A stretch of 46,664 nt of DNA from contig NZ_JAIPUS010000025.1 of the NCBI RefSeq assembly GCF_020055675.1, positions 1-46,664 of the forward strand. The letters are read 5' to 3'. The notes beneath the pieces are model-generated. The model was given only the letters and a program-made list of their open reading frames with translations, made no database searches and was not told where the DNA came from. Shown one piece after another: positions 1-31,256 of this stretch. Numbering within the stretch: position 1 is the stretch's first letter; every line of letters starts with the position of its first letter. This DNA comes from Marivita sp. GTDB lineage: Bacteria > Pseudomonadota > Alphaproteobacteria > Rhodobacterales > Rhodobacteraceae. Both the position numbers and the translations under genes were made by a program.

Positions 1-2266
1 AGATCGAGAATTCCATGCCGCTGCCGCGTTGCCGCACCGGCCCCCCCGAGAGTGTGCCACGTTGGCTGGTGCTGGGCAGCACCACCTTGATGCCGCGCGC
101 CATGGTGTAGAACAGCTCGAGAACGGAAATGTCGAAGCTCAGGCTGGTCACGGCGAGCCATGTGGCCGCTTCGCGGTCGGGGATGACAGAATCCATCCCG
201 GCATAAAAGTTGAGCACGTTGCGGTGTTCGACCATCACGCCCTTGGGCAATCCGGTAGAGCCGGAAGTGTAGATGACATAGGCGAGGTTTTCACCGGTGG
301 CGCTTGCGTCCGGGTTGGTGGCCGGGGCATTGGCAAGGCGCGGGTCACGGTCGATGACAAGCAGATCGGCGCTGCTGTCCGGCAAATCGCTGCGCAGGTC
401 GCTTTGGGTAATGACGACCGGCGCGCAACTGTCGGACAGGTAATGCGCGATCCGGTCTTGTGGATAGTCCGGATCGAGCGGCACATATGCCCCGCCCGCC
501 TTGAGGATACCCAACGCGCCCGCGACAAGGTCTGGATCACGTTTGCAGTGCAGTCCCACCATCGTGTCGGGGGCCACGCCCATCCGGCGCAGGGTATGTG
601 CGATCCGGTTCGCGCGGTCATTGAGGGATGCGAAGCTGACCGTGGTGTTTTCATGTACCAGCGCGGTGGCATCCGGGGTGCGGGCCACTTGCGCCTCGAA
701 CGCGGCGTGCATTGTGGCCGGGGCATCCGTATCGACGGCGGTGGCGTTGTAGGTCTCCAGCACATCCCGGCGTTCGCCGGGCGGAAGCGGATCAACCGCC
801 TCGGCTGCTTTGCCATCTGCCAGTTGATCGGAGATCCAGCGGAGTCGATGGATCAGGATCCGGGCAAAATCCGGGATGATGCGGCCTTCGTCGATATGAG
901 CTTTGACGGCCCCTGAGGACAGTTCGAAGGTGATCGCGGCCTGGGGCACGGCCCCGGCATTGAGCGACAGGCCAAGTGCCGGGGTTTGCAAAGCGTCCAA
1001 GGCCGGGTCGCGCAAGGGAAGGTCGCGCGCAAAGCCGGTCTCGACCTTCGGAATTTCGCGGCCCAGCGTGTCGGCGGAAACGGGCACCCATGGGCAAACA
1101 AAGCCGATGCTCGACGCTTCGACGAGCGCCGGATTGGTGAGCGCCAGTCCCGGTTCCCTTTGTGGAGACAACCGGTTTGCGAGGATCGACAGCGCCTTTC
1201 CAAGGTGGTCTGCGTTGATGCCTGTCTCTCGCGTGCTTAGCGATCGTGGTTCGGAGCGGAGAAACGGCAAGGTCAGCGGGACCGTTTCCGACAGCTTTCG
1301 CCGCCAATGGTTCTCGCGCTTTGCGGTGGTGCGCATCGTGTCACTTATGGTTGCGCGCTCCGAATCCGACAGGGACGTCAGCGCGTCGCCCAATGAAACG
1401 AGGGTCTTCGGTACGACGGGCCGGCCTGTCTCATCCGCAAGCTCCGTCAGGCGCAGCGCGGCATCGGCGAAAGCTATGGTCAGGGATGTGTCGTCCACGC
1501 CGATCACACGTCCGGCGGGGGCGCTGCTTTCTGTCCTGGAGGCGCTGCCGATATGCACGAGGCGGTCGCCAACATGCAGCTTGGGTCGGCACATCGGGTT
1601 CCAATAGGATCCATGATCCAAGGCCCGGATAAGGCGCAGCGCGGTGTCGGCGGTTTGGTCGAACCGCAGCAGGCCATGTGCCTCTGGCCGGTCGCTCAGC
1701 GCATGGTAGCCGCGCCGGTCCGTGTCCTGCCTGCGGCGATTGGGCAGCCCCGCCGCGAGTTCCGACAACAGGTCTGGAAAACTGGTCAGCCCGGCCTCGT
1801 AACACTTGGTGTTGAGTGTGAGCGCGGTGTCCTCGGGCGCGATGTCGACGCTGCGCTGGACGAGGATATCGCCGGTGTCCACGCCATCATCGATCAGGTG
1901 CCAGGTAATTCCGTGGGTCTTCTCCCCATCGATCAGCGCCCAGATCGGCGCGTTCAGCCCGGCGCGTTTGGGCAGCAGGCCATCGTGAAAGTTCACCGCG
2001 CCCTTGCGTGCCTGCGCCAACACGTCCGGGCGCAGGATCTTCAGGTTGGCGATGCTCAGCACCCAGTCGGCAGATATACCCTGCAACCGATCGGCAAGGT
2101 CCGGGCCATGCGCCTCGACCCGGATGTTGCGGGCGTTGGCCCAATCCGCCAGCGCGGGCGTGTCGGTGACCAAGGCGGTCAATCGATGTCCTTGCGATAA
2201 CAAGGTTTCCGCGCAGTGCTGCGTCAAGCTTTCGTCACCGATGATGATGCTGTCGAAATGGGTCAT
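1..2266 (-). CDS. Formyltransferase-adenylation enzyme with probable inserted luciferase-like monooxygenase (partial, NRPS-like)
   Basis: The 3' end lies beyond the left edge; 755 codons are visible. Residues about 1-200 are a formyltransferase (Formyl_trans_N) domain with the catalytic triad N92 and H94 (in NFHDGLLP) and D130 (in DDGVDTGD), followed by a Formyl_trans_C-like stretch and a linker. An NRPS adenylation domain starts near 519, with the core motif TSGSTGLPKG at 667-676 and the following motif TSLSFDISVLELF. Soon after, instead of continuing the adenylation fold, the chain reads SGGPVRQRGSGMEFSI. A start like MEFS is what I expect for a luciferase-like flavin monooxygenase domain inserted in an adenylation domain, as in the Atu3671/MupA family. 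That part is inference because the sequence ends there. The gene follows the glycosyltransferase by 3 bases and is the last visible gene of the PKS operon. Ribosome binding site is weak. Confidence 0.8.
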   Translation of the reverse strand, partial: MTHFDSIIIGDESLTQHCAETLLSQGHRLTALVTDTPALADWANARNIRVEAHGPDLADRLQGISADWVLSIANLKILRPDVLAQARKGAVNFHDGLLPKRAGLNAPIWALIDGEKTHGITWHLIDDGVDTGDILVQRSVDIAPEDTALTLNTKCYEAGLTSFPDLLSELAAGLPNRRRQDTDRRGYHALSDRPEAHGLLRFDQTADTALRLIRALDHGSYWNPMCRPKLHVGDRLVHIGSASRTESSAPAGRVIGVDDTSLTIAFADAALRLTELADETGRPVVPKTLVSLGDALTSLSDSERATISDTMRTTAKRENHWRRKLSETVPLTLPFLRSEPRSLSTRETGINADHLGKALSILANRLSPQREPGLALTNPALVEASSIGFVCPWVPVSADTLGREIPKVETGFARDLPLRDPALDALQTPALGLSLNAGAVPQAAITFELSSGAVKAHIDEGRIIPDFARILIHRLRWISDQLADGKAAEAVDPLPPGERRDVLETYNATAVDTDAPATMHAAFEAQVARTPDATALVHENTTVSFASLNDRANRIAHTLRRMGVAPDTMVGLHCKRDPDLVAGALGILKAGGAYVPLDPDYPQDRIAHYLSDSCAPVVITQSDLRSDLPDSSADLLVIDRDPRLANAPATNPDASATGENLAYVIYTSGSTGLPKGVMVEHRNVLNFYAGMDSVIPDREAATWLAVTSLSFDISVLELFYTMARGIKVVLPSTSQRGTLSGGPVRQRGSGMEFSI

Positions 2267-2269
2267 GGG

Positions 2270-3289
2270 TCAGTCCACACTGATCTGGAGAGGCGTGTCA
2301 GGGCGCATCCCGATCGCCCGGATCGAGGCTTCGGGTGTCGGTTGGCAAAGCGCGCGCAGGTCGTGGGACAGCAGATCGCGCACAAAGTGTTCCGCATCCG
2401 TGTCCGGTTTTCCCTCGGCCCAGCGGCGCAGGCGCCAGCATACCGTGCCAACCGCGTTCAGAAGGGTGGCCGAGATGGCATAGGCACGGTTGTAATTCTT
2501 GCTGTAATAATACCAGCGGCTTTGGAACCAGTAGGGTGGCGTGCGGGTCCAGCAGCCCATCCCGGTGGACACAGAGCCGATATGGCAGATTCGGCTTTCG
2601 CGGACGAAATGCACCTCGTGCCCGGCGCGACGGGCGCGCAGGCAGAGGTCCGTTTCCTCGAAATACAGAAAGAATGTTTCATCAAAGAGGCCGATCTTGT
2701 TCAACACACTGGTCCGCGCCAGCATCGATGCACCAACGATCCAGCCCACGGCGCTGGACGTTGCGGGCACGTGCAGCGGCAGGACGTAGTCTTTCAGCAG
2801 GCGCGTGACCGGACCCAAGCGCGCCGCGGCTTCGAATTCCGACGCAAGGCCGGGAAAGCGAAAGGCGCTGCAATGGGCGGCCCCGTCTTCGCCCGAGATC
2901 CTGCTCCCGGCAATGGCGGCCCTGGGATTGGCCTCAAGGTAGCTGACCAACGCCGCGATGCCGTCTTTTTCGACCGAGGCATCGGGGTTGAGGATGTAGA
3001 CGAATTCGGCGTCGGGACAGATGTCGAGCCCCGCACGGATGCCGAAGTTGTTGCCCGCGCCGAAGCCGCCATTGCGACCCGATTGCAGCACTTGAACGTC
3101 TATATGCGCGGGCCAGCGGGCGGCGCGCACGGCCTGCTGCATTTGGTGGAATGAATCGTCAGGGGACGCGTTGTCAACCAGTACGATCACGCCGCCGAAA
3201 TCAGCCATGGCCGCCGCCGCCGATTGTGCGGCCTTGACCGACAAGTCGGGCGTTTTGTAGTTCAGGACAACCGTGACGATGTTGATCAT
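2270..3289 (-). CDS. Family 2 glycosyltransferase (rhamnosyltransferase-like)
   Basis: A 339-residue GT-A fold glycosyltransferase, predicted to transfer a sugar from a nucleotide donor at the cytoplasmic face of the membrane. Visible motifs are the N-terminal VTVVLNYKTPD strand, VDNAS at 39-43, GRNGGFGAGNN at 71-81 (typical of WbbL-type rhamnosyltransferases), the metal-binding-type NPDAS at 101-105 and the acidic FEETDLC at 210-216. There is no obvious transmembrane segment. It begins 5 bases after the PKS stop codon and ends 3 bases before the formyltransferase-adenylation gene, so it is almost certainly co-translated with both. That placement suggests it glycosylates the polyketide/peptide product or an intermediate carrier. 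The donor and acceptor sugars cannot be read from sequence. Confidence 0.9.
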   Translation of the reverse strand: MINIVTVVLNYKTPDLSVKAAQSAAAAMADFGGVIVLVDNASPDDSFHQMQQAVRAARWPAHIDVQVLQSGRNGGFGAGNNFGIRAGLDICPDAEFVYILNPDASVEKDGIAALVSYLEANPRAAIAGSRISGEDGAAHCSAFRFPGLASEFEAAARLGPVTRLLKDYVLPLHVPATSSAVGWIVGASMLARTSVLNKIGLFDETFFLYFEETDLCLRARRAGHEVHFVRESRICHIGSVSTGMGCWTRTPPYWFQSRWYYYSKNYNRAYAISATLLNAVGTVCWRLRRWAEGKPDTDAEHFVRDLLSHDLRALCQPTPEASIRAIGMRPDTPLQISVD

Positions 3290-3294
3290 GCTGC

Positions 3295-6200
3295 TTACTC
3301 TGCTGCCTCCGAGGATGTGAACGGCAGCACCGTGCCCTTGCCGCCAATCTCTGCTTCCGTGGTTTCGATCAGCTTGCGCAGATAGCTGGCAAGCACACGG
3401 ACATTGGGCTCAAGCACCATGCTGTCATGGTCGCCGGGCACTTCGTAGACGTCGATCTGCGGCGTGAATTGGCCCCAGTCGTTGTCGTCGAACAGGTAGG
3501 ACCGCTCATGGTTGACCAGGCGGCGGCTCGAGACCGTCCATGTGCCTGTCAAGGGCGGACGGAACAAGGCGATGCGGCCATCCCATCCGGTCATCTGGTA
3601 GGTCGCCACGGCATCGAGAAACGCCTGTTCTATCTCCGCATTGTGGAAGCTGTGCGCGGTTTTCGTCGCATCGCTTGGCGTGCGCTTTTCGAGTTCCCAG
3701 CGCACACGGTTGCGCAGCCAGACAAACGGGTAAGCGATGCCTTTGCGCTTCGTTTCTTGCCATTGTATCAGCAGGCGGTCCTTGCGGCTCAGCGGGCGGC
3801 GCTGCGGCAGTGGCGTGTCGAGCAGAACAACCAAGGCTGCCTCGTCGCCCATTGCCTCGAGCTGATGCGCGATCTCATAGGCGGTGATGCCGCCGCCCGA
3901 GAACCCCCCGACGAAATACGGACCTTCAGGCTGAACCTGTTTCATTTCGGCGATGTAATCGCGTGCCGTATCGCGGATCGACCGGTGCGGTGTTTCATCG
4001 CCGTAAAGCCCCTTGGCCTGAAGTCCATAGAAGGGGCGATCATCGCCCAGAAGTTGGGCCAGGTGGCGCAGATTCAGGACATTGCCAAACATGCCTGCGA
4101 CAAGGAAGAACGGGGTTTTCGGGCCCCCCTCACCGTCATGCATGGCGACGACATGCTTGAACCGGCGCGTCTTGGGCTTGGGTCTGTCGGGCGCGCTTTC
4201 GGGGGTGTCGCTGATCCCGGTACGGTCGTGGATCAACGCGGCACAGGCGCGGATGGTCGGGGCTTCGAACAGGACCGAGATCGGGAAATCGACATTGTAG
4301 GTTTTGCGTATCTTGGCAAAGAGACGCACCGCGATCAGCGAATGCCCGCCCATATCAAAGAAGCTGTCTTCGACCCCGACGTCCTGCACGCCAAGAAGGT
4401 CTTCCCAGATGCCGACCAATGTGCGCTCGACCTCGGTTTCGGGCGCGATGTAGTCACCATCGAGCTGTGGACGGTCGAATTTCTGGCCCTCGCCCGTCGT
4501 TTCAGACGTGATGCCCGCCTGTTCTATCAGTGCCGGCATGTCGAGCGAGGACACGTAGAGTTGCGGCACACCCTGTCCCAGGGCGCGCAGGAAGGCATCT
4601 GCCCCATCCTCGGGCGGGATGCCCTGGGACAGGTTGTGCTGGAACCGTTCTTCGGCAGGCGACAGGGGTTGCGTTGCCCTGCCGAAATCGGCTGGTTCGA
4701 ATTCGCTCTGGCTCACCTTGATAGGGGCGGACAACGCGGCGGTATCGTCCATCCGTTTGATCGAGAAGCCCTCGATCTCCATACAAATGGTGCCGTCGGG
4801 CTTGGCCAGGATGATGTCGAAACAGGCAGTGTCATCCGCGTTCCGGTTGCGCCCGCTGGATCGAACCCAGCTGACAATCTGCCCGCAGACGCGGTGATAG
4901 ACCTTCACGCTGTCATAAGATACCGGCACCCAGAGATTTTCGGCGCTGTAGCCGTCTATCAGCTCCATCGCCCAGCCGGTCGCGATATCGAGAAGCGCCG
5001 GGTGGAAGTGCCAGCCTTCATCGCTTTGTCCTTCGGGGCCGAGGGATAGGTCGGCGATGCCTTCCCCTTGTCCGTAGGCGCAAGTGTCCAGCACCTTCCA
5101 CCGTGGTCCGAAGGACAGATGGTTTTCCTGCGCAGAGCGGAGCTTTCCGCGATCCCCAGCGCTTCGCGCCACGCCACACCGGGCGCGGATCGCCATGATA
5201 TCGACCGGTTTAGGCTGCGCCTCCGGGCTCAGCACCAGATCGGCCGCCACGGTGGGGGCAAACCCTGCGCGCCCGCCCAGCGTGTGGCTGCCAAGCACAT
5301 CCATATGGTACCCGTGATCGCGGCGGGACAGACGGAGCCGGATGTCGCGGTGGCCCGTGTCGGGAACATGCAAGGGGCGCAGGAAGGTCATGTTGCGGAT
5401 GGTAAAGCACCCGGTTTCCCCTTGTGCGCGCAGCGCCTTGGCTGCCAGCGACAGATACCCCGCTCCGGGGAACAGGGCGTCACCCTGTTTGGTCCTGTGC
5501 TCGTCAATGAACCAGTCCCCTGCGGTGTAGCGCGATTCGAAAATCCGGTGGCCAGACGGGTCGAAGCCGGTCTTGTCGAGCAGTGGCAGCGCGATCTCCG
5601 TCAATGCGGCTGATCCGGAATCGCCAAGGCGGTCTGACAAGGCGTTTGCAGCCATCCCAACCTCGGACCAGATGCCCCAATTTATGGCAACGACCCGCGT
5701 CTTGTCATTTTTGCGCGCATGGGCATAGGCATTCAGGTATTCGTTCGCTGCGACATAGTCGATCTGGCCTGCCGGGGCTGTCCGGGTCGAGGATGATGCG
5801 AAAAGCGCGATGAAATCGGTGCTGCCATCAGGGAAAAGCTGATCCAACACCTTGGTGCCGTGGATCTTGGCCGAGAAAACCTGTTCGACCGACCCGGTGG
5901 ATTTCGCCAGCAATGGCGCGTCGTCCATGACCCCTGCGGCGTGGATCACGCCGTCGATTCGGCCCTCGCGGGTGGTTGTTTCATCAACGACCCGCGTCAT
6001 GTCGGTCAGGTTGCACACGTCCGCCGCATGGCTGTGAACGGTTGCGCCGAGCGCTTCAAGCTGTTGCACCGCGCGGATGCGTCGGGCCAGTTTGTCCTGC
6101 GGCGCGTGGCGCTCGAGGTAACGGGTCCAAAGATCACGGTCGGGCAGGGCATCACGGGCTGTCAGGACCAGCGTGCAGCCCTGCGCCGCCAGCGATTTCG

Positions 6201-9200
6201 CGATGGTCAGCCCGATACCACCAAATCCACCCGTGACAAGATAGGTCCGACCCTGCTTTATCAGGGTGTCCTGCGCAGGTTGTAGCACGGTCTGGCGCAG
6301 GTCTTGTTCATAGCGCCGTCCCGCGCGCAGGGCGGCAACGGTTGATGCCGGGGTCGCGATCATGTCCTCGAGAACCTGATCCGTGAGAGTTTTCCACGCC
6401 TGTGCATGGACAGTCTGATCGCCCCGACCGCCGAGGATCCGCCTGGCAGGGGGGTCGGGCAGGGCCAGATCGACAGAAGCGACGTTCAGCTCTTGAACCT
6501 CGCGTGGAATGACACGGACCGGGCCTGCAAGAATGGCCTTTTCCGGCATGACAACGGTTTCCGCACCCAGCGCCGCCGCTCCATTCGTGAACACGGTCAT
6601 CTGCGCCGGTTTGGGCAGGGAGTCGTCCGCGATCGCCTGCGCGATGAACATGAGCGAATAAAACCCGTGTTCCTGCATCCTGTGGAAAAAACTGGACCCG
6701 GGACGATGGCTTTGATCCTTGGTCACACCCCAGAAATGCGCGATGCGGCCGGGGACCAGCCCGCGCGAAAGCATGTCGGCAAAGAGCATGTCATACCCTT
6801 CGCGCCCGCGTTCGGGGGCCAGAACATAGGTCGTGTCGTCCACGCGCGCAAAGCTGTCGCCGGGCCACACCTCGATGATGGCGTGGTTTGCATCACGCAA
6901 GCGTTTGGCGGCGGCGCTGGCGACACCGGCATCATCCATGAAGATCAGCCAGCTTTGCACCTCGGCGCTTGCCAGGTCGTCGCGCACGTCAACGGCGGTC
7001 GCGGCGTATTGTGGCCGCCAGATGGGCGTCCAGCCCCAGTGTTCGAGACCGTCGATCCGCGTCAGGAAATGCGATACCGACGGGGTTTGCGCTTCTCCGG
7101 GTGCGATGAAATAGCGGGACCGCTGAAAGGCATAGGTTGGCAGCGGCACGCGGTTGCGGCGGGCATCGCCCCAGATCTGATCCCAGTCGAAATCACCGCC
7201 AAGCGCCCAGATACGGCCCAGAACTTCGAGCATGTGGCGGTCATCCTCGACGGTTTCGTCGGGGTGGCGCAGACTGGACAGAACCTGGTTCGCGGCGATG
7301 CCGGGGGCTTGGCGGGCAAGCCCGGACAGCGCCTTGCCGGGGCCGACTTCGAGGAAGATTCGGTTTGGCCGTTCAGCCAGAGCTTGGAGGCCCTGGTTAA
7401 ACTGTACCGTTCCGCGCAGGTGGGCCACCCAGTATTCCGGGCTGGTCGCCTGGTCGGCAGTCATCCTGGTTCCGGTGCGATTCGATGTGATCGGGATCTG
7501 CGGTGGGTGCAGCGGTATCGCTTCGAGATAGGCACGGAACCGGTCGAGGATCGGATCGAGCATGCGCGAATGGGCGGCGATGTCGATCGGGATGCGCTGG
7601 AACTCGATCTCCAGTTCTTGCAGGGTCTGCTCCAGCGCCTCCAGCGCCGCGGTCGGCCCGGATGCCACGCTGAGGCCCGGACTGTTCACCGCCCCAAGAT
7701 CGAGGTGGTTGCCCAGCAGCGGCTCCAGCTCTTCCGCCGGCAGGGCGACCGAGATCATGCCGCCGGGATCAACCGTGTCAAACAGCGTGCCACGCAGGTG
7801 AACAAGGCCGATACAATCGTCAAAAGACATCACGCCCGCAACGCAGGCGGCGGTGTTTTCGCCCATGGAATGGCCTGCCAGCGCGGTTGGCTGGATACCC
7901 CAGCTGATCCAGAGCTGCGCCAGCGCGTATTCAACGATCATGATGAGCGGCAGTTGCAGCGACGGCTTGCGCAACGTCTCGGCAGCTTGATCCTCTTCGC
8001 CGTGCCGGGGTAGCCAGAGCGCGCGAATGTCCCGATTTTCCAGCGTTTCGAGATGCGCCAGTCCGCGGTCCATCCATTCGGCAAAGACCGGTTCGGTCTC
8101 GTAGAGGTCGCGGGCCATGCCGACATATTGCGCGCCGCCGCCGGGGAAGAGGAACGCGATGTCCGGCAAAGACAGCGCGTCATGGGTATGGACGCGGCGC
8201 GGGTCGCCGCGTTCGAGCTGTTGAGCCGCGTCGAGAGGGTCGGTCGCGACCACGACACGGCGCTTTTCGAAGGCGCGGCGCCCAGTGTTCAGCGTCCAGG
8301 CCACATCCGCCAGCGGTTGATCGGGGTTCGCGCGAAGATGGGTGGCAAGCCGGGCCGCGTTGGCATCCAGCGCCGGGGTATTCCGCGCCGACAGCGTCAG
8401 GATCTGGAACGGCCAGTCACTGTCTTCGGACGGTTCCGGTGTTGGCGCCTCCTCGAGCACGAGATGGGCATTCGTTCCCCCGACGCCCAGCGAATTGACC
8501 CCGGCGCGGCGGGGATGGCTGGTCCTTGGCCAATCGGTCAGCCGGTCGTTCACGCAAAATGGCGTGGTTTTGAATTGGATGGTTGGGTTGGGCTCTTCGA
8601 ATCCCAAGCTCGGCGGCATCTGGTGATGGTGCAGGGCCATCGACGCCTTGATCAGGCTGGCCACGCCCGCCGCGGTATCGAGATGCCCGATATTGGTCTT
8701 GACCGACCCGATCCGGCAATGGCCTGTCTTGTCGCTTGTGCACTCGAAGGCTTGCGTCAGTGCCGCAACCTCGATCGGATCGCCGAGATAGGTTCCGGTG
8801 CCATGACATTCGACATAATCTATGCTTTCGGCCGAAACGCCGGCCATGGCATGCGCCTCTGCAATCGCGTCAGCTTGTCCATCGACGGACGGGGCCAGAT
8901 AGCCTGCTTTGGCCGCCCCATCGTTGTTGACCGCGCTGCCCTTGATGACGGCCCAGATATGATCGCCATCTGCCAAGGCATCGGACAGGCGGCGCAACAC
9001 GACCATCCCGGCACCCGATCCGAACACCGTTCCCTGTGCGCGGTGGTCAAACGCATGGCATTGCCCATCCGGCGACAGGATCTCGTTCTCCTTGTAGAGA
9101 TACCCTTGCCCCTGCGGCAGTTCGATCGTTACGCCGCCCGCCAGCGCCATGTCGCATTCGCCGTTGAGCAGCGATTGACAGGCGTAATGCGTTGCCACCA

Positions 9201-9771
9201 ACGAGGTGGAACAGGCGGTCTGCACGTTGACGGACGGGCCATCGAGATCGAAGATATGGCTAACGCGGGTGGTCAGGAAATCCTTGTCGTTGCCGGTATG
9301 GCGCAGCAGGAACATCCCGGTGCCATCGACCAGATCGGGATTGGAACACAGGTTGAAATAGAAATAGCTGCCCATGCCACAGCCACCGAAGACACCGATA
9401 CGTCCGTCATGCCTCTCTGGCATGTGGCCCGCGTTTTCCAGAGCCTCCCACGCGCATTCAAGGAACTGGCGATGCTGTGGATCCATGATGGCCGCGTCCT
9501 TGGGCGACAGGCCAAAGAACTCTGCATCGAAGTGGTCGAAGTTTTCCAGATTGGCAGCGTAGGGCACGTAATCCCGGTGCCGCAACAGGCCCGGCGATAC
9601 GCCTGCGTCGGTCAACTCCTGCTCGAACAGCTGGCGGATCGAGCATACGCCGTCCCGCAGGTTCCGCCAATATTCCGACAGCGATGCCGCGCCCGGCAAA
9701 TGGGCGGACATGCCGACGATTGCAACATCCCCGTCCGGGACAGAAATCGGATCGGTTTTTCTATGCGTCAT
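3295..9771 (-). CDS. Single-module type I polyketide synthase, KS-AT-KR-DH-ACP-TE
   Basis: A 2158-residue modular enzyme. The ketosynthase (about 14-440) has C187 in TACSTS, H323 in ECHGTGT and H363 in TNIGHLD. The acyltransferase (about 540-870) has S635 in GHSMGE and H734; PTYAFQRSRYF at 878-888 is the post-AT linker. A ketoreductase structural half (about 905-1130) leads to the NADPH site TGGFGGIG (1180-1187) and catalytic S1327/Y1339/N1343. A dehydratase (about 1415-1675) has H1425 and D1595; its motif reads H-x4-G-x4-P, one residue longer than the usual H-x3-G-x4-P. A KR-type C-terminal segment (about 1712-1750) follows, then an ACP with S1811 in DMGGHSL and a thioesterase with S1958 in GFSGG, D1985 and H2115. 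All catalytic residues are present. No enoylreductase or methyltransferase is seen, so one extension to an unsaturated acyl product with hydrolytic or transfer release is likely. The ATG at 9771 follows GAGG. Confidence 0.97.
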   Translation of the reverse strand: MTHRKTDPISVPDGDVAIVGMSAHLPGAASLSEYWRNLRDGVCSIRQLFEQELTDAGVSPGLLRHRDYVPYAANLENFDHFDAEFFGLSPKDAAIMDPQHRQFLECAWEALENAGHMPERHDGRIGVFGGCGMGSYFYFNLCSNPDLVDGTGMFLLRHTGNDKDFLTTRVSHIFDLDGPSVNVQTACSTSLVATHYACQSLLNGECDMALAGGVTIELPQGQGYLYKENEILSPDGQCHAFDHRAQGTVFGSGAGMVVLRRLSDALADGDHIWAVIKGSAVNNDGAAKAGYLAPSVDGQADAIAEAHAMAGVSAESIDYVECHGTGTYLGDPIEVAALTQAFECTSDKTGHCRIGSVKTNIGHLDTAAGVASLIKASMALHHHQMPPSLGFEEPNPTIQFKTTPFCVNDRLTDWPRTSHPRRAGVNSLGVGGTNAHLVLEEAPTPEPSEDSDWPFQILTLSARNTPALDANAARLATHLRANPDQPLADVAWTLNTGRRAFEKRRVVVATDPLDAAQQLERGDPRRVHTHDALSLPDIAFLFPGGGAQYVGMARDLYETEPVFAEWMDRGLAHLETLENRDIRALWLPRHGEEDQAAETLRKPSLQLPLIMIVEYALAQLWISWGIQPTALAGHSMGENTAACVAGVMSFDDCIGLVHLRGTLFDTVDPGGMISVALPAEELEPLLGNHLDLGAVNSPGLSVASGPTAALEALEQTLQELEIEFQRIPIDIAAHSRMLDPILDRFRAYLEAIPLHPPQIPITSNRTGTRMTADQATSPEYWVAHLRGTVQFNQGLQALAERPNRIFLEVGPGKALSGLARQAPGIAANQVLSSLRHPDETVEDDRHMLEVLGRIWALGGDFDWDQIWGDARRNRVPLPTYAFQRSRYFIAPGEAQTPSVSHFLTRIDGLEHWGWTPIWRPQYAATAVDVRDDLASAEVQSWLIFMDDAGVASAAAKRLRDANHAIIEVWPGDSFARVDDTTYVLAPERGREGYDMLFADMLSRGLVPGRIAHFWGVTKDQSHRPGSSFFHRMQEHGFYSLMFIAQAIADDSLPKPAQMTVFTNGAAALGAETVVMPEKAILAGPVRVIPREVQELNVASVDLALPDPPARRILGGRGDQTVHAQAWKTLTDQVLEDMIATPASTVAALRAGRRYEQDLRQTVLQPAQDTLIKQGRTYLVTGGFGGIGLTIAKSLAAQGCTLVLTARDALPDRDLWTRYLERHAPQDKLARRIRAVQQLEALGATVHSHAADVCNLTDMTRVVDETTTREGRIDGVIHAAGVMDDAPLLAKSTGSVEQVFSAKIHGTKVLDQLFPDGSTDFIALFASSSTRTAPAGQIDYVAANEYLNAYAHARKNDKTRVVAINWGIWSEVGMAANALSDRLGDSGSAALTEIALPLLDKTGFDPSGHRIFESRYTAGDWFIDEHRTKQGDALFPGAGYLSLAAKALRAQGETGCFTIRNMTFLRPLHVPDTGHRDIRLRLSRRDHGYHMDVLGSHTLGGRAGFAPTVAADLVLSPEAQPKPVDIMAIRARCGVARSAGDRGKLRSAQENHLSFGPRWKVLDTCAYGQGEGIADLSLGPEGQSDEGWHFHPALLDIATGWAMELIDGYSAENLWVPVSYDSVKVYHRVCGQIVSWVRSSGRNRNADDTACFDIILAKPDGTICMEIEGFSIKRMDDTAALSAPIKVSQSEFEPADFGRATQPLSPAEERFQHNLSQGIPPEDGADAFLRALGQGVPQLYVSSLDMPALIEQAGITSETTGEGQKFDRPQLDGDYIAPETEVERTLVGIWEDLLGVQDVGVEDSFFDMGGHSLIAVRLFAKIRKTYNVDFPISVLFEAPTIRACAALIHDRTGISDTPESAPDRPKPKTRRFKHVVAMHDGEGGPKTPFFLVAGMFGNVLNLRHLAQLLGDDRPFYGLQAKGLYGDETPHRSIRDTARDYIAEMKQVQPEGPYFVGGFSGGGITAYEIAHQLEAMGDEAALVVLLDTPLPQRRPLSRKDRLLIQWQETKRKGIAYPFVWLRNRVRWELEKRTPSDATKTAHSFHNAEIEQAFLDAVATYQMTGWDGRIALFRPPLTGTWTVSSRRLVNHERSYLFDDNDWGQFTPQIDVYEVPGDHDSMVLEPNVRVLASYLRKLIETTEAEIGGKGTVLPFTSSEAAE

Positions 9772-9876
9772 GCGCGTACCTCGGTCTCTCGCGTGAACGG
9801 TTATCGCATGAATATGATGAAACTAGGGCAGTCAGCGTTGTCACAGGCGCTTTGGTCGACCGGTCGAACCCGCCGT

Positions 9877-11238
9877 TTACAGCGCGGCCAGATTGGTTAA
9901 CGCGTCGGCATTGATCCAGAATGCGAGCAGGATCGTCAAGGCGCCGACGACAGCGTATAACGCATCATGTTTGGGGTCCCACGCCCCGACATGGCGCGAC
10001 ATCCAGACAACAAAGGGATAAGCGGCCAGCCCCGCCAAGCCCTGTCCAACAAGCGCACCGAACAGCCCGCCTTGCATCAGGCCCGCAAACAGGAATCCCA
10101 ATGTCAGAACCGCCCGCGCGGCTGACAGTACAAAGAAGCGGTGGGAATCACCAGCGGCCAGCGCCGCCTGTTCATACGTCAGGACGATGATGTGGGGTAT
10201 CTGCATTGCCGAGATCAGGACAACGACCGCGCCAGCCATCAAATATCGTGGATCGTACATCAGGTCGATCAAAAGCACCCCGGCAACCGACACGGTGCCG
10301 GTCAGGCAAATCAACGCGCCTGTCAGCAAAAAGCGCATCTTCTGCAATTTTCGAAAATTCTCCGCGCTTTTGGCAGGGGGACGTTCCCTGTAGACGGGGA
10401 TCAGGACCTTGCGGGTCATCTCTCCGCCCATGAGAATCGGGAAGCTGGCGAGGAAAAAGCCGATGTTGTAAATGCCGAATTGATCGAGTGGCAGGTACGT
10501 CCCCAGAATGAGCTTGTCACCTTGCAGATAAAGAAACCCGCAGATCGTGCTGAGGAAGATCCACTTTCCGAATTTGATCAGCTCATCCGCCGCTGCGCGT
10601 TCCCAGTGGAAGCGGTTGCGTTCTCCGGGCAGTAAGACATTGTAGAAGACCAGCAACACCAGCGCCGACGAGACGCCGCTGATCACCAGCGCCCAGACCG
10701 ACTGCAGGTACCATGCGACTACGATCGCGATCACGAGGCCGATCACCTGTGACCCAAGGTTTAATGCGGTCAGGCGGCCCAGCAACAGGTGCCTGTTCGC
10801 TGTCACCATCCGTGTCGGATTGAATCCGGCGATCAGCAGGGAAAGCCCCGAAAAGGGCAGCAGCCATGCCAGCAATGGCTCACCGTAAATTGCCGCCACA
10901 GGCACCGCGATGGCGCATGCGAAAAGCCACAAGAGCACGCCGCGAATGACCTGAATGGTCCAAGCGGTATCAAGGAATTTTTGATCATCGCCGCGTTTCG
11001 ATTGCATGATAGCGGGGTTGACCCCGACATCGGAAAACATGGCCAGCCCTTGCATGATCACTGCAACCAGCGCCATGAGACCGAAGGCTTCCGGGAAGAG
11101 CAGGCGTGTCAGGATGAGGTTCGACGCAAGACGCAACGTCTGCGCCGCACCGTATCCGGCGAGGGTGAAGACCGAACTCCGCATGAAACGCGCGTTCAGC
11201 GATGCTCCGCGAAACCGGGACGACATTGCCATGATCAC
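9877..11238 (-). CDS. Oligosaccharide flippase family protein (Wzx/MOP-type)
   Basis: A 453-residue polytopic inner-membrane protein with about 12 or more hydrophobic helices and the N-terminal signature of the Polysacc_synt/MOP flippase family: a short basic head, then FTLAGYGAAQTLRLASNLI, TRLLFPEAFGLMALV and a conserved MQ-x-G-x-x-SDVG-like element near residues 62-72. The family flips undecaprenyl-linked or other lipid-linked oligosaccharides from cytoplasm to periplasm. The frame opens with GTG at 11238, sharing GTGA with the stop codon of the upstream glycosyltransferase. ATG codons at 11232 and 11226 are alternative starts. A 105-base gap without a gene separates it from the PKS start. 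Its presence between a glycosyltransferase and the PKS implies that the product is exported as a lipid-linked glycan. Confidence 0.9.
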   Translation of the reverse strand: MIMAMSSRFRGASLNARFMRSSVFTLAGYGAAQTLRLASNLILTRLLFPEAFGLMALVAVIMQGLAMFSDVGVNPAIMQSKRGDDQKFLDTAWTIQVIRGVLLWLFACAIAVPVAAIYGEPLLAWLLPFSGLSLLIAGFNPTRMVTANRHLLLGRLTALNLGSQVIGLVIAIVVAWYLQSVWALVISGVSSALVLLVFYNVLLPGERNRFHWERAAADELIKFGKWIFLSTICGFLYLQGDKLILGTYLPLDQFGIYNIGFFLASFPILMGGEMTRKVLIPVYRERPPAKSAENFRKLQKMRFLLTGALICLTGTVSVAGVLLIDLMYDPRYLMAGAVVVLISAMQIPHIIVLTYEQAALAAGDSHRFFVLSAARAVLTLGFLFAGLMQGGLFGALVGQGLAGLAAYPFVVWMSRHVGAWDPKHDALYAVVGALTILLAFWINADALTNLAAL

Positions 11239-12107
11239 CGGCCCCGGCTCCAGCCCGAGCGACCGCTTCCCTTGATGCGCACAGCAAGCGCGACGCTCGC
11301 GTAGACGGCAAATCCAACCGGGTCCCGAAACGCTTGCTTCACCTTTTCGATCGCCGGATAGGGTGGTTTGTCATCATTTTCGAGCAATTCTGGATACCTG
11401 GTCTTGATCTCGTCCACACCCGCGTTTTGCCGTCTGCGCACGCGGACCAGGTTGCGCCACCCTTCGACCAACGGCCACGAGTACGGAGCATTCACGCGCA
11501 CACGTTCTTCCGGGCGGAAACTCAACCGCACGAAGGTGTCGTCCGAGATGATGTCAGGAAAGGCGCCCCATCGCCTTCGGCCCGCCGCGTTCACCGCGAA
11601 CAGTCCGGCACCCGGCACGCCCTGCGTCATGAAAGGCACTTGCGCATAAATCCTGGCATAGGCACGTGTCGCCCATGTTCGCGGTGCGAACAGATTCAAC
11701 TGGCCACTCGCATATCGCGGTCTGGGCGTATCGAGTGCTTCGTACAAATTACCGAGCAAGCGCTCAGATATTTCAACATCTGCATCCAGGTAGACCCGTA
11801 TCGCACCTCGTGCGACTCGATCGCCGGCGTTCAATGCACCAAGCTTGCTGCCTTCCTCGCGCTCCAGAACACGGAGACACCAGCTTTTGCGCGCGAATTC
11901 CTCCTGATGCCGCAATGCGGTCTGCGCTGTCCGGTCTTGGCTGCCGTTGGAAATCACGACTGTTTCCACACCCCCTTCATGGACCCAGTCACTTTGCAAA
12001 ACGGCGCTCAGGCATGCTCCGATCAATGCCTCTTCGTTCGAGGCAGGGATCAGGATGCTGAGAACAGGCAAGGGCTCAGTCATGGGACCGCGAGGCGGAT
12101 GCGGCAT
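11235..12107 (-). CDS. Family 2 glycosyltransferase
   Basis: A 290-residue GT2 enzyme. It has the opening SILIPASNEEALIG strand (17-30), VISNGSQD at 51-58, the metal-binding DAD at 108-110, the acceptor-side SDD at 188-190 and RVRRRQNAG near 222-230 in the place of the QxxRW-type element. One or two C-terminal hydrophobic segments (about 262-278) may tether it to the membrane. It is the first gene of the PKS/glycan operon, and its stop codon overlaps the start of the flippase. The ATG at 12107 follows AAGGAATGG at a fair ribosome-binding distance; a second ATG at 12083 (MTEPLP) is possible. It is distinct in sequence from the glycosyltransferase at 2270-3289. Substrates are unknown. Confidence 0.88.
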   Translation of the reverse strand: MPHPPRGPMTEPLPVLSILIPASNEEALIGACLSAVLQSDWVHEGGVETVVISNGSQDRTAQTALRHQEEFARKSWCLRVLEREEGSKLGALNAGDRVARGAIRVYLDADVEISERLLGNLYEALDTPRPRYASGQLNLFAPRTWATRAYARIYAQVPFMTQGVPGAGLFAVNAAGRRRWGAFPDIISDDTFVRLSFRPEERVRVNAPYSWPLVEGWRNLVRVRRRQNAGVDEIKTRYPELLENDDKPPYPAIEKVKQAFRDPVGFAVYASVALAVRIKGSGRSGWSRGR

Positions 12108-12146
12108 AATCGGCCATTCCTTGGAAGCGACGCTACGTTCAGGGGT

Positions 12147-12175
12147 GCTAGGGGTCTTTCACAGGATCATGTCAA
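12147..12175 (-). promoter_or_regulatory. Candidate promoter of the glycosyltransferase-flippase-PKS operon
   Basis: On the minus strand a perfect TTGACA (12170-12175) stands 17 bases before a poor -10 hexamer, CCTAGC (12147-12152), about 40 bases upstream of the first glycosyltransferase gene. Only the -35 element is convincing. The surrounding stretch 12108-12290 separates the operon from the flagellar block and holds no gene. Confidence 0.3.
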
Positions 12176-12290
12176 TTTTAAGGTTGTTCGAGATTTTACA
12201 ACTTTTGTGCCCCGGTGGGCGGAGTTGACGCGTTACGCGTACCAACAGTCAGCAAGATAAGAATGAAACTCTCGTGGCTCGCCAATCCTC

Positions 12291-14033
12291 CTAATCCGCA
12301 TATCTTTCCTCCAACGCCTCTCGCGCCCGGCTACTCTGATCCAACTGATCCTGTGCTATCGCAACGCTCAATTGCTCTGGGCTCCCGGAAGAACCGGCCA
12401 AGGCGTCTTGTGAATTCAGGAGCGTCGCATCATCCATCCGCATCGAAGACCCAGCATCGAACCTTGTATCATTTGTTGCGGCAACAGGCGCCGGTTCGAG
12501 CAGATCCGCGGTTCTACGGGCTTCGTCCGAGAAACCCTCTTCAATCAGGCGATCAACGACTTTTCTGGCATCAGCCGCGTCAATGCTTGGGTCCAGATCA
12601 GGTAACGACGTCAGCGCGACCTGCACGAATGTCGCGCTGTCCGCATGATCAACCAGCGCCTCTATAAGCTGTGAAACAGCAATCTCTTGCACCAGTGGCG
12701 GTAACGAGCTGGTCTTTTTCAAGGCGGCCAAGGCGTCAAAAAACCTGTTGTGATCAAGATAGGCATCAAATGCCGCTTCCCAGCTTTCCATCTCTCTTTC
12801 GGTACCACGCAACTCCGTGGTGACAGCAGCCAAGCTGTCGGGGTCACCTGTCTTGTCGCCCTCCTTGCCTGCAAGGCCTGTCTTCCTTTTTGCCAGCGAC
12901 TCTTCCAATGTTGCATGGGTCACAAGCTGTGGGAAAAGGGATTTTTCATCACCTCCGAGTATTGAATTTAATCTTGGATAGAGCTGAATTTGAAGCCCGG
13001 GTGACAAAAGTTGAAAATCCTGCAATATTTGTAACTTGATGTTTCCCGGAATATCCGCTTCGCTGGTTGCGGTCGCGAGCAGAATATCAAAAAGGGGACC
13101 ACAGTCACCGAACCGTCCTGAGACTGAAGGCGCAGGATCGGAAATAGCAGAAACAAACTTGGAAAAGCCTGCGGCATCATCGGGGGAATCCGAGATAAGT
13201 TGAAATGTGGCTTTTGCCTCTTCCAATAGCCCGTTTGACAAGAGGTGAACGACCAATTCCCTGGTGATTGCTTTGTTATCAGACATTGCGCCGTCATTGA
13301 TTGACCGGGCATAATTGCTACCGTTGGTCTGACCAGTAAGCTCAGGTGTTTCTGTGCCGATCACAGACCAAAGGGCTTCGGACCACTGGCACAGCCGGTC
13401 AATTCCTTTGATCGAATTACCTCGAGTGATATCCCGTTCAACCGCCTGATGTTCGCCGTTGCGAAGTCCCTTCGGAACGTCAGAAAATCCGACGATATGT
13501 GAATTTTGACTGATCTGCGCGGCAATTGAGTTTGACAATCGATCCACGGCAGAAAAATCGAGCGCCAAGGCATCCATGGTTGGGCTTGGTTGGGGTGGTG
13601 CCTCAGGTAATTCAGGGAAAGCGCCTGGTTTGAAAGGCAACAAGGGGAGAGTGACTGTCTCTTTCTCAGTGCTCTCGAAAATGTCGATAACGAGCAGATT
13701 GTTTGCTTCGATCCGGGTTTTGATATCGCAGTTGCAGGTCACTTGCAATTCAAGGGTAGTTTTCAGCACCCTTATTGCGCCAACCCGATCTGCGCTTAAT
13801 CTATCAAACATCATATCTGTGTTCAGTTTCGAGAAGGGCGGTGTCAATATCAGGTGGAACTTGGCATCACCCATGGGCGTGTTTTCAAAACTCTCTACTG
13901 TTTGTTCCGAAGCGATTGTAAGCCGGGTAAAACTCCCGTGTTCTCCGCCGCGAACGATCCCGGTGTTTGCTTGCGCGACTCCAGCCACGACACAGACCGC
14001 AAGCAAGAGCAGGGCTGAAAGAAATTCACGCAT
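12291..14033 (-). CDS. Secreted protein of unknown function beside motA
   Basis: A 580-residue protein with a clear Sec signal peptide (MREFLSALLLLAVCVVAGVAQA, cleavage near residue 22). The mature N-terminal third looks beta-rich and contains the pair TCNCD; the rest is mostly helical, resembling a repeat-type solenoid. I do not recognise a domain with confidence. Its start overlaps the end of motA by 8 bases, so it is translated with the motor stator. Rhizobial MotC is a periplasmic protein encoded beside the stator gene motB and stabilises MotB; this protein could play that part, but I see no clear sequence match and the assignment is from position only. Base composition is slightly lower in GC than the PKS region. 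Confidence 0.75.
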   Translation of the reverse strand: MREFLSALLLLAVCVVAGVAQANTGIVRGGEHGSFTRLTIASEQTVESFENTPMGDAKFHLILTPPFSKLNTDMMFDRLSADRVGAIRVLKTTLELQVTCNCDIKTRIEANNLLVIDIFESTEKETVTLPLLPFKPGAFPELPEAPPQPSPTMDALALDFSAVDRLSNSIAAQISQNSHIVGFSDVPKGLRNGEHQAVERDITRGNSIKGIDRLCQWSEALWSVIGTETPELTGQTNGSNYARSINDGAMSDNKAITRELVVHLLSNGLLEEAKATFQLISDSPDDAAGFSKFVSAISDPAPSVSGRFGDCGPLFDILLATATSEADIPGNIKLQILQDFQLLSPGLQIQLYPRLNSILGGDEKSLFPQLVTHATLEESLAKRKTGLAGKEGDKTGDPDSLAAVTTELRGTEREMESWEAAFDAYLDHNRFFDALAALKKTSSLPPLVQEIAVSQLIEALVDHADSATFVQVALTSLPDLDPSIDAADARKVVDRLIEEGFSDEARRTADLLEPAPVAATNDTRFDAGSSMRMDDATLLNSQDALAGSSGSPEQLSVAIAQDQLDQSSRAREALEERYAD

Positions 14034-22205: not shown

Positions 22206-24314
22206 TCATGTCCCGGCCTGTGCCAGGCGGGGCGCGCCGAACCGGATGTTCCATGCAAGTATCGCGAGCACAACCGCTACTCCGGCAAGATTGATCATCA
22301 GCGCCTCGGGCCACAAGCACGCAAAGCCGGCGGCAAAACAGATGATCCGCATGATCCAGCCAAAGGGTCGCTCCATGCAGCCCTGCAGCCCCGCAGACAG
22401 CGCATATACCCCGACAACGGCAAAGCCGAACACCTGCAACATCGCGAGCCAATCACCCGACAGGAATGGCGTATAGGCAAACAGGACCGGCACGATATAA
22501 AGGCCCTTCGCCAGCTTCCAACTCTCGACACCAGTGGCCATTGCCGGCGCCTTGGCAATCGCCGCAGCAGTAAAGGCGGCCAGCGCAACAGGTGGGGTCA
22601 CATTGCTGTCCTGAGACAGCCAGAAGATGATCATATGCGCAGACAAAAGCGCACTTGTCGCGACCTCGGGCGGCACCACCAACTCGCGTAGGGGTGACGC
22701 AACCTCGAGCGGCAGGCTGCGGATGAGCGTTGACGCCTCGGATTGGGTCAGATCGCGATTCAGCATCTCGGCCTGTTCCGGCACGCCGAACATCAGGATG
22801 GCGTTCGCGGCATCGGGCAAGGCGCCCGCAGCCAATTGCGCGATCACGAACTGGTCGCTGATCATGCCGGACAGCGCCGGGGCCGACAGCGTGGCCAGAA
22901 CGATATAGGCCGCCGTCACCGGAAGCCCCATGCCAAGGATCAGGCTGGCCAATGCAACCAGCACAAGCGCGATCAGGATATTGCCACCAGCCCAGCTTGC
23001 GATCATCAGACTGAAGGTGTTGCCGACGCCAGCCGTCGCGATCACGTTGACGATCAGGCCCACGGCACAAAGCAGAACTGCCGTCAGCACCATGCCCTTG
23101 GTCCCCATCACGAAGGCCTCGAACACCGCTTTCGGGTTCATCGGGTTCTTGGTCAGCCAGCTTGACCCGATCACGGCGAGGATTCCGAAGACCGCGGCAT
23201 ACGTCGGGGTGAAACCCGACACCAAAAGCGCAATCAGGGTGCAGATCGGGATGATGAAGCTGGCCCCGCCTTCGCGAAAGGCCGACCCGAGCGTCTGGCC
23301 TTCGTCCGGCATCGGGGCGAGGTTGTTCCGGCGCGCTTCGATCCGCACGAAAAACGCGACTGACAGGAAATACAAGAGCGCCGGCAGGGCCGCGACCGCA
23401 ACGATGGTCTCGTAAGGGATCTGCGTGAAACTTGCCATCACGAAGGCTCCGGCGCCCATGATCGGCGGCATCAGTTGCCCGCCAGTGGACGCGGCCGCTT
23501 CGACGCCACCCGCGAATTTCGATTTGAAGCCAGCGCGTTTCATCAGCGGAATGGTGATCACGCCTGTCGAGGCGGTATTGGCAACCGCCGAGCCCGAGAT
23601 GGTCCCCGTCAGACCTGACGCGATTACCGCAACGATTCCCGGTCCGCCCACCAGTTTGCCCGCCACGGCGCGCGCCATGTTGATCACGAACTCTCCTGCG
23701 CCCGACCGCAGCAAAAAGGCGCCGAAGATGATGAACAGGAAGACATAGGTCGAGGAAATCCGCGCGATCGTGCCGAACATCGCGTCATCGCCATAGATCG
23801 ACCGGAACGCCACTGTTTCGACGCTCAGGCCCGGAAAGGCAAAGACCCCGCCGATGAACTGCCCCCAGAAGGCGACATAGGTCAGGGCCAAGATGATCAG
23901 GATCGGAATGATGATCCCGGCCACACGCCGGGTCAGCTCTATTGCGCCAAGGACACATACGGAAACCGCGATCCAGTCGAGCGGGGCAAGTTTCACCCCT
24001 CGGTCATAGATCGCGTTCTCGGCAAGGGTCAGCCAAACCGCTGACGCGGCAACGGCAATACCGAGTGTCAGGTCCAATGCAAGCGGTGCCGCCTTGCCGG
24101 ACCTCCCGCGCCACATGGGATACAGCACGGCGGCCAGCGCGGCGAATCCCGCGAAGTGCCAGCCGTTGCGTTGCAGTTCTGACAGCACCGGGTCGAAGGC
24201 CACGTAGATGTGCCCGATGGCGATCAGGAAACAGACCACCGACAAGGCCATATCCGCCGAACCGCTGAACGATCTTATGCGAGCGCTGTCGTGGTCTTTC
24301 TCGATATCTGACAT
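22206..24314 (-). CDS. TRAP transporter fused permease (TAXI-associated, 4TM/12TM)
   Basis: A 702-residue inner-membrane protein that joins the small (DctQ-like) and large (DctM-like) TRAP permease subunits into one chain. The N-terminal ~170 residues hold about four to five helices. The DctM part follows with the conserved segments GLTGTISGSAVANTASTGV, KSKFAGGVEAAASTGGQLMPPIMGAGAFVMA and LGMGLPVTAAYIVLA. It imports organic acids or amino acids using an ion gradient with the binding protein encoded 61 bases upstream. The open frame reaches 24353, but the ATG at 24314 (MSDIEKD) gives a normal hydrophilic N-terminus after GGTGGGTCC. It is a paralogue of the permease at 31323-33608. Confidence 0.94.
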   Translation of the reverse strand: MSDIEKDHDSARIRSFSGSADMALSVVCFLIAIGHIYVAFDPVLSELQRNGWHFAGFAALAAVLYPMWRGRSGKAAPLALDLTLGIAVAASAVWLTLAENAIYDRGVKLAPLDWIAVSVCVLGAIELTRRVAGIIIPILIILALTYVAFWGQFIGGVFAFPGLSVETVAFRSIYGDDAMFGTIARISSTYVFLFIIFGAFLLRSGAGEFVINMARAVAGKLVGGPGIVAVIASGLTGTISGSAVANTASTGVITIPLMKRAGFKSKFAGGVEAAASTGGQLMPPIMGAGAFVMASFTQIPYETIVAVAALPALLYFLSVAFFVRIEARRNNLAPMPDEGQTLGSAFREGGASFIIPICTLIALLVSGFTPTYAAVFGILAVIGSSWLTKNPMNPKAVFEAFVMGTKGMVLTAVLLCAVGLIVNVIATAGVGNTFSLMIASWAGGNILIALVLVALASLILGMGLPVTAAYIVLATLSAPALSGMISDQFVIAQLAAGALPDAANAILMFGVPEQAEMLNRDLTQSEASTLIRSLPLEVASPLRELVVPPEVATSALLSAHMIIFWLSQDSNVTPPVALAAFTAAAIAKAPAMATGVESWKLAKGLYIVPVLFAYTPFLSGDWLAMLQVFGFAVVGVYALSAGLQGCMERPFGWIMRIICFAAGFACLWPEALMINLAGVAVVLAILAWNIRFGAPRLAQAGT

Positions 24315-24375
24315 GGACCCACCGATCGTCAGGGGCCAGCCCATGAGGCACACGGGCTGGCCAGAGGATGTCGGA

Positions 24376-25386: not shown

Positions 25387-25437
25387 GAGGTCCTCCCGGT
25401 TGATGCGCCTTACCGACGCTTTGGCTACATTAGGCAG

Positions 25438-25464
25438 AATTCCCGACCGAAAGTAGGGAAAATT
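25438..25464. promoter_or_regulatory. Imperfect dyad upstream of TAXI gene
   Basis: Arms AATTCCC and GGGAAAATT, separated by 11 bases, form an imperfect inverted repeat about 52 bases before the TAXI gene start, in the 151-base space after the RND gene. It may be an operator; the match is short and could be chance. Confidence 0.25.
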
Positions 25465-25537
25465 TTGGTTGCGTCCAGCACAACCCTGCGAATCATGCCC
25501 GGAGCGGTGTCGAAACGGCCGACCTGCATGAGCCGCT

Positions 25538-28708: not shown

Positions 28709-28711
28709 GGG

Positions 28712-29872: not shown

Positions 29873-30184
29873 TGCTCGTCTCCCTCATGTGGCACCAACC
29901 GTCCGTTGGGCTAAACTAGCGTGTCTTTGCCGAAAGGCAGGGCCATGGCGTGCCTTTCGGGTGTCAAATGACCTGTGCCGGCGGCTTATGCCAAGAAAAC
30001 CGGCAACTCTAGGGTTTGAGCCCGGCTTTTACGATTCCAATGGGATGCGGCGCCCAATCCGTGCGCCCCTTTCCCCTTGATCCAATGATCTGCTTGCCTA
30101 TACCGTTCAAGAGTGCGTTACCGCGATAGCCGCTGCGGGGGGCAAGTCATGTCTCCTGAAGAACGCCAAAAGTGGAGGAACACA
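29873..30184. other. Divergent intergenic region between RND adaptor and TAXI genes
   Basis: These 312 bases separate two divergent transcription units and hold no convincing gene; a 24-codon in-frame extension of the TAXI gene from 30113 lacks a ribosome site. The region contains the inverted repeat at 29930-29960 and should carry the promoters of both units. No consensus -35/-10 pair stands out. Confidence 0.6.
29930..29960. repeat. Perfect 10-bp inverted repeat
   Basis: CCGAAAGGCA (29930-29939) and TGCCTTTCGG (29951-29960) are exact reverse complements around an 11-base loop that itself contains the palindrome GCCATGGC. It lies 58 bases upstream of the RND adaptor start. No T run follows, so an operator or leader hairpin is more likely than a terminator. 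Confidence 0.55.
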
Positions 30185-31168: not shown

Positions 31169-31223
31169 TCCCGGAGCGCGCCGCCTGCAAGGCTTTGCAG
31201 TGCGGACGGGCACCAGAACACCA

Positions 31224-31256
31224 GGCCGCGCCCCACTTGCGGGCGCGGCCTTTTTT
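31224..31256 (+). terminator. Intrinsic terminator/attenuator between TAXI gene and permease
   Basis: A perfect 10-base stem, GGCCGCGCCC (31224-31233) with GGGCGCGGCC (31241-31250), closes a 7-base loop and is followed at once by six T. It is a textbook Rho-independent terminator and stands 56 bases after the binding-protein stop codon. Partial read-through would give much more binding protein than permease. Confidence 0.88.

Follow-up and report, generated by a model that had tools for sequence, protein, structure and literature searches.

A gene cluster of a polyketide synthase (PKS), a nonribosomal peptide synthetase (NRPS), a glycosyltransferase and a phosphopantetheinyl transferase (PPTase) has been described as conserved in roseobacters, occurring in 28 of 57 genomes with an orphan product (PMC4337385), and this description has been repeated with reference to Martens et al. 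2007 (PMC5014874). Hybrids of NRPS-like and type I PKS genes were reported in 18 of 37 species, with an NRPS–PKS spacing of 992 bases in R. domitiana and a low MIBiG similarity for a hybrid cluster of Roseibaca (PMC10584327), and a PKS (Inhi_1972) and an NRPS (Inhi_1974) have also been listed (PMC4062626). Type I PKSs are likewise known from capsule loci (RkpA/WcbR; PMC3908369). Here, such a locus was analysed in a stretch of 46,664 bases (the window), which is the whole of contig C5 (G000:C5 1-46664) of a Marivita sp. genome. Its five-gene operon encodes a GT2 family glycosyltransferase (GTA), a Wzx-type flippase, a single-module PKS, a second GT2 glycosyltransferase (GTB) and the N-terminal part of an NRPS-like enzyme with formyltransferase (FT), adenylation, luciferase-like monooxygenase and carrier domains (FT-A-LLM-T). 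The 992-base spacing in R. domitiana corresponds approximately to the length of the GTB gene. The original prediction that no described pathway has this gene set calls for correction in view of the published roseobacter core and the capsule-locus PKSs; the orphan PKS–glycosyltransferase–NRPS core is already known and it is the polysaccharide-export context which is new. No link of this cluster to polysaccharide was found in the open-licence PMC literature, with nothing on it in the available parts of PMC4359443, PMC8739492, PMC5466765 and PMC11225332. The cluster is widespread, being present in about one third of the sampled genomes of the family.

A coupling of this assembly line to polysaccharide export is well supported. 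To begin with the core, GTB was detected in 170 of 394 genomes of the family, representing 393 genera, at E<=1e-20 and in 135 at E<=1e-80 (35 weaker rows deducted by hand). The FT part was found in 142 genomes (E<=1e-20) and directly adjoins GTB in 131 of them, the two lists being matched by eye; the other 11 are G216, G292, G147, G245, G285, G217, G191, G185, G144, G022 and G143, of which G144 holds a different, larger assembly line. Profiles were used to map the best 80 loci of a GTB-profile scan of named genomes, which therefore lean towards close relatives and of which 67 had both flanks complete, together with 19 of the 20 longer regions fetched, these 19 having been picked for their high GTB scores and the quality of their assemblies. 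The PKS adjoins GTB in 77 of the best 80 loci and in 66 of the 67 with full flanks, and the FT-NRPS, with a limit of 400 bases, in 77 and 65 respectively. The two FT misses among the 67 are a gene beyond this limit (L108) and a split locus (L121, the G285 contig). The adjacency of the PKS and the FT-NRPS to GTB is not due to chance. GTA was present in 46 of the 67 full-flank loci. An adjacent PPTase was not matched in the eight loci nearest the window (seven titled Marivita) and was matched in 53 of the 61 other full-flank loci; in the source genome, a PPTase is encoded on contig C71. It should also be noted that in G009 (L062-L063) the PKS is broken into several open reading frames (ORFs) and the FT-NRPS into two, representing either a decayed copy or sequencing error.

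Five export markers, namely the flippase, Wzz, Wzc, a Wzy-like protein and WecG, were sought within 10 kb of each locus. At least one was found in 59 of the 67 full-flank loci and at least two in 57. The flippase itself lies within this distance in 39, with P of about 1e-71 against an assumed chance of about 0.5% (one gene in a 4-Mb genome). Within 20 kb, every one of the 19 longer regions showed one or more markers and 15 showed the flippase; where the flippase is farther off, it mostly occurs elsewhere in the genome. The proposed link of assembly line and glycan export has thus largely withstood the question of whether the glycosyltransferases and flippase are regularly apart from the PKS: GTB is not, and the flippase is close in the proportions just given. 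Because these loci had been picked through GTB, co-occurrence at the genome level was added (flippase E<=1e-60, FT E<=1e-20). Over the 394 genomes, flippase and FT were found together in 131, FT only in 11, flippase only in 13 and neither in 239 (Fisher p 1.7e-74, without correction for phylogeny). The agreement of this 131 with the number of FT–GTB adjacencies is coincidental.

Rearranged loci are also informative. In G285 and G191, GTB is separated from the PKS/FT pair by 8–13 kb and has WecG, a Wzy-like protein and other glycosyltransferases as neighbours, with the PKS, FT, PPTase and an SGNH-like gene grouped together, and GTB adjoins Wzc in two Shinella and one Neorhizobium. GTB is able to leave the PKS/FT pair for WecG or Wzc neighbours and has the behaviour of a polysaccharide glycosyltransferase. 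A second FT copy in G126 has a flippase and a GT2 gene close by.

The system also extends beyond the family. On plasmids of Ruegeria and Paracoccus (L181, L182), the PKS, the GT2 and an FT-LLM enzyme are encoded amid glycosyltransferase and sugar-transferase genes, and the core is therefore able to change replicon. In the independently annotated records of Shinella zoogloeoides and Aminobacter, the gene for the PKS and that for the FT-LLM enzyme are divergently oriented and the gene order differs from that of Rhodobacteraceae, with the loci holding a PPTase, a flippase, an O-antigen ligase family protein, a polysaccharide export protein and glycosyltransferases. The profiles also recognised loci without annotation in Neorhizobium and in a second Shinella, where the PKS/NRPS pair is likewise embedded in a polysaccharide locus of changed gene order, and an initiating sugar-phosphate transferase is annotated in the Ruegeria, Paracoccus and Shinella records. 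A restriction to Rhodobacteraceae, drawn from hits in 5 of 385 class genomes at E<=1e-40, all of the same family, was withdrawn because the plasmid records show the system in Rhizobiaceae and Phyllobacteriaceae; that threshold was probably too strict for homologues of 34–39% identity. A giant NRPS/PKS of Rhizobium with a similar FT has no polysaccharide-type neighbours in its 25-kb stretch. On a plasmid of the cyanobacterium Gloeothece (L186:10851-15963), an NRPS gene is directly followed by a GTB-like GT2 gene, possibly a separate pairing.

Within the window, the ORF list places all five genes on the minus strand and Pfam backs each of them (Table 1), bearing out the gene set of the original prediction. 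Its claim of tight spacing holds for the GTGA overlap joining GTA and the flippase (11238-11235) and for the gaps of 5 bases between the PKS and GTB and 3 bases between GTB and the FT-A gene; the 105 bases between the flippase and the PKS are the only loose joint of the operon. No Pfam match to an enoylreductase (ER) domain was obtained in the PKS. The match of GTB to TIGR01556 scores below the cut-off, and its AlphaFold model has a pLDDT of 90. As the window is an entire contig, the FT-A gene is incomplete, ending at the contig edge (base 2) where the monooxygenase insert begins. Scans of positions 9600-12500 for promoters and terminators gave nothing above shuffled sequence, and the Rfam search gave no matches. 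Of the remaining content of the window, a flagellar block (FlgI, MotA) lies upstream of the operon, and positions 22206-33608 hold genes for a TRAP-type transporter (DctM) and for an RND efflux pair, together with one NMT1-like gene.

Table 1. Genes and domains of the operon in the window (KS, ketosynthase; AT, acyltransferase; KR, ketoreductase; DH, dehydratase; ACP, acyl carrier protein; TE, thioesterase)
Feature	Position	Strand	Evidence
GTA, GT2 glycosyltransferase, operon gene 1	11235..12107	-	Pfam PF00535 8.3e-19
Wzx-type (MOP) oligosaccharide flippase	9877..11238	-	Pfam PF13440 2.4e-47
Type I PKS, single module KS-AT-KR-DH-ACP-TE	3295..9771	-	Pfam
PKS KS domain	8599..9729	-	PF00109/PF02801, residues 15-391
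PKS AT domain	7336..8154	-	PF00698, residues 540-812
PKS KR domain	5662..6246	-	PF08659, residues 1176-1370
PKS DH domain	4738..5586	-	PF21089/PF14765, residues 1396-1678
PKS ACP domain	4231..4422	-	PF00550, residues 1784-1847
PKS C-terminal TE domain	3298..4107	-	PF00975, best stretch residues 1889-1991; end placed at gene end
GTB, rhamnosyltransferase-like GT2, between PKS and NRPS	2270..3289	-	Pfam
FT-A-LLM-T enzyme, N-terminal part	2..2266	-	PF00551, PF02911, PF00501
FT domain	1775..2119	-	PF00551, residues 50-164
Adenylation domain, first part up to motif a4	62..700	-	PF00501, residues 523-735

The complete relative of the cut gene in M. hallyeonensis (G371), of the same genus, encodes 1,527 amino acids with the Pfam order Formyl_trans_N, Formyl_trans_C, AMP-binding interrupted by Bac_luciferase (PF00296), and PP-binding. 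Relatives thus identify the cut gene as coding for a single protein of about 1,530 residues, with a formyltransferase, a glycine-type adenylation domain carrying a luciferase-like monooxygenase insert, and a carrier. In M. hallyeonensis (NZ_FQXC01000003.1), GTA, flippase, PKS, GTB and FT-A-LLM-T are contiguous and are followed by genes for an SGNH-like protein, Wzz, a Wzc-like ATPase, an oxidoreductase-epimerase fusion, GT2 and GT4 glycosyltransferases, an epimerase, an oxidoreductase and WecG. Contig C8 of the source genome starts inside an FT-A-LLM-T-type enzyme and continues with the same downstream genes, except that an AlaE-type gene is added and the fusion gene is missing; among its products are Wzz (PF02706) and a Wzc-like protein of the ParA/CbiA type. 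Its monooxygenase insert matches TIGR04020 with 492.5 bits against a cut-off of 244.45, and this is the only TIGR04020 domain found in the assembly. The ends of C5 and C8 overlap by 191 bases with only 70% identity, and the end of C5 resembles other Marivita genes, which the start of C8 does not; for these reasons the two contigs were taken as neighbours by synteny only. Positions 1-268 of the window and G000:C8 1-268 (L004) hold homologous adenylation pieces, and the mismatch could be an assembly error, recombination or a second module. In both the source genome and M. hallyeonensis, a PPTase, an outer-membrane exporter (Wza, PF02563) above cut-off and a homologue of the linked Wzy_C-like gene, a candidate polymerase (42 and 46% identity, with a sub-cut-off Pfam score for the reference), lie elsewhere in the genome.

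The SGNH-like gene was found in 72 genomes of the family, 69 of them with FT, and S58, D246 and H249 are invariant in its product. The confident model opens with a long N-terminal helix and the Pfam matches are weak; we infer that it may be a membrane-anchored esterase or acyltransferase. The helix and the paucity of Pfam matches are seen in both L043:4773-5726 and L004:2537-3562, and a second, weaker SGNH-like match lies in a larger adjacent ORF in several genomes. Upstream of GTA in M. hallyeonensis is a 558-residue protein without a Pfam match (L042:8569-10245), which its profile places together with a hypothetical protein of Shinella and with proteins from other genera that contain RTX; the profile has no match in the window.

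Residues were compared in 91 FT-NRPS sequences (1,400 amino acids or longer) and 89 PKS sequences (2,050 or longer), from 101 sources with some genomes included twice. The formyltransferase N, H and D are kept in 91 of 91, the carrier serine in 90 of 91 (one gap), and the PKS sites (KS C/H/H, AT S/H, KR S/Y, DH H/D, ACP S, TE S/D/H) in 89 of 89; these are the residues which we take to be catalytic or, in the carriers, functional. With code positions assigned by motif, the adenylation code is DILQ[MFLY]GMIWK in 90 of 91, the exception having V at position 330, and position 299 is L in 14 sequences; the window itself covers the first three code residues only. The monooxygenase insert is placed after motif a4, as in myxothiazol and melithiazol. 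The modules in question there are MtaG and MelG. Four glycine domains with a monooxygenase (MOX) have the common code DILQLGMIWK (PMC12283262). In myxothiazol and melithiazol, a flavin-dependent monooxygenase (FMO) between a4 and a5 hydroxylates the glycyl alpha carbon and cleavage follows, and in solanimycin B, where the FMO is inserted at a8-a9, the hydroxyglycyl unit is retained (PMC10204066). No condensation domain was found in the source genome, so the carrier should feed the KS directly; a multimodular NRPS was rejected on the same result.

Taken together, it is moderately likely that the monomodular NRPS–PKS pair serves a Wzx/Wzy-type exopolysaccharide pathway, its product, an acyl or amide group derived from formylglycine, being placed on the lipid-linked repeat unit before export, and that product is probably an unusual decoration of a surface polysaccharide. 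The nature and attachment of the product we infer from sequence, as follows. Glycine would be loaded on FT-A-LLM-T and N-formylated, after which the inserted monooxygenase would oxidise the alpha carbon of the formylglycyl unit. The resulting formyl-hydroxyglycyl unit, or a glyoxylyl unit if the carbinolamide breaks, would be handed directly to the KS, and the PKS would add malonate, reduce and dehydrate to give an unsaturated short acyl chain. The TE would then transfer this chain to a sugar of the undecaprenyl-linked repeat unit built by GTA and GTB, which Wzx would flip, with Wzy and Wzz/Wzc polymerising and exporting the modified polysaccharide. A more specific version, in which each repeat unit receives an oxidised, unsaturated acyl group that derives from formylglycine and might be a reactive aldehyde, as a class of glycan modification common to Rhodobacterales and Hyphomicrobiales, is put forward tentatively. 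Should the product indeed be bound to a polysaccharide, it would escape any screening of culture extracts for free compounds, and an assembly-line route to glycan modification would be suggested.

Several observations weigh against this explanation. The TE could merely hydrolyse its substrate. Homologues of the Wzy-like protein, the outer-membrane exporter and the PPTase are not beside the cluster in either Marivita genome tested, and the Wzy-like frame of the source genome contains one in-frame TGA. GTB had no match in the Aminobacter stretch, and none of the five markers was found within 10 kb in 8 of the 67 full-flank loci. Seven FT regions away from GTB were fetched, and the stretches from G217, G185 and G292 hold PKS and FT without any export marker; a flippase match occurs elsewhere in G185 and G292 and not in G217. 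Eleven of the 142 FT genomes gave no flippase match at the threshold, and G285, G191 and G217 among them are genomes of good quality. Of the eleven, G062 is a search miss, as its contig (L156) shows a flippase, and G144 has the different assembly line noted above. Conversely, 13 genomes of the family have the flippase without FT, and shared descent could partly explain the co-occurrence.

Some of these points would suit a free, perhaps glycosylated, secreted small molecule, with descent accounting for the position of the assembly line amid polysaccharide genes and the flippase serving the polysaccharide only. The literature treats the cluster as a secondary-metabolite cluster (PMC10584327, PMC4337385, PMC5014874), hydrolysis is common for a TE, and the core has no export markers in reach in some loci. 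However, the flippase accompanies FT in 131 of 142 genomes, the polysaccharide association survives the reordered genes of Rhizobiaceae and Phyllobacteriaceae, and GTB can leave the PKS yet remain with polysaccharide genes, so that a free product is considered unlikely.

A further possibility concerns the chemistry of the starter. The monooxygenase may lead to cleavage of the hydroxylated formylglycyl carrier into formamide and a glyoxylyl starter, in which case a reactive aldehyde (4-oxo-enoyl) could cross-link the matrix. The same-site FMO acts on a glycyl unit and is followed by cleavage in myxothiazol and melithiazol (PMC10204066, PMC12283262), whereas the hydroxyglycyl unit is kept in solanimycin B, although the insertion there is at a8-a9 (PMC10204066). 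This outcome is regarded as doubtful; it is a branch of the polysaccharide-decoration explanation and compatible with it.

A lipid-like product that acts as anchor or acceptor of the polysaccharide, instead of as a side-chain decoration, is quite improbable, an anchor role being the one suggested for the PKSs of capsule loci. A single PKS module might act iteratively, and rkp/wcb capsule loci do encode a type I PKS (PMC3908369), but the formylglycine-type starter, the oxygenase and the lack of an ER match better suit a small polar unsaturated acyl group. Lastly, GTB could be dedicated to glycosylating a free polyketide; this reading was rejected as first choice because in G285, G191, two Shinella and Neorhizobium GTB is separated from the PKS and accompanies polysaccharide genes.

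When compared with the described systems, the locus shares with the roseobacter NRPS/PKS cluster the adjacent PKS, glycosyltransferase and NRPS genes (positions 2-9771 of the window, with the full NRPS in M. hallyeonensis). It differs in that the available text on that cluster gives four genes and leaves flippase, Wzz, Wzc, WecG and polysaccharide unmentioned (PMC4337385, PMC5014874), and in that the PPTase of that cluster is not adjacent in the eight loci nearest the window. The rkp/wcb loci (RkpA/WcbR) similarly combine a type I PKS with genes for capsular polysaccharide biosynthesis and export, but the available text mentions no formyltransferase-adenylation-monooxygenase partner, and the comparison is one of gene content (PMC3908369). 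The best solved relative of the NRPS is the initiation module LgrA of linear gramicidin synthetase, in which a formyltransferase is likewise fused to adenylation and carrier domains in the order FT-A-T; here, in contrast, the code is of glycine type, a monooxygenase is inserted and the enzyme that follows is a PKS, the source genome having yielded no condensation domain. The MOX glycine modules of myxothiazol and melithiazol resemble the enzyme in that the monooxygenase interrupts a glycine adenylation domain between a4 and a5 (PMC10204066). However, hydroxylation and cleavage end the chain in those systems, whereas the present module, with its N-terminal formyltransferase, should start one.

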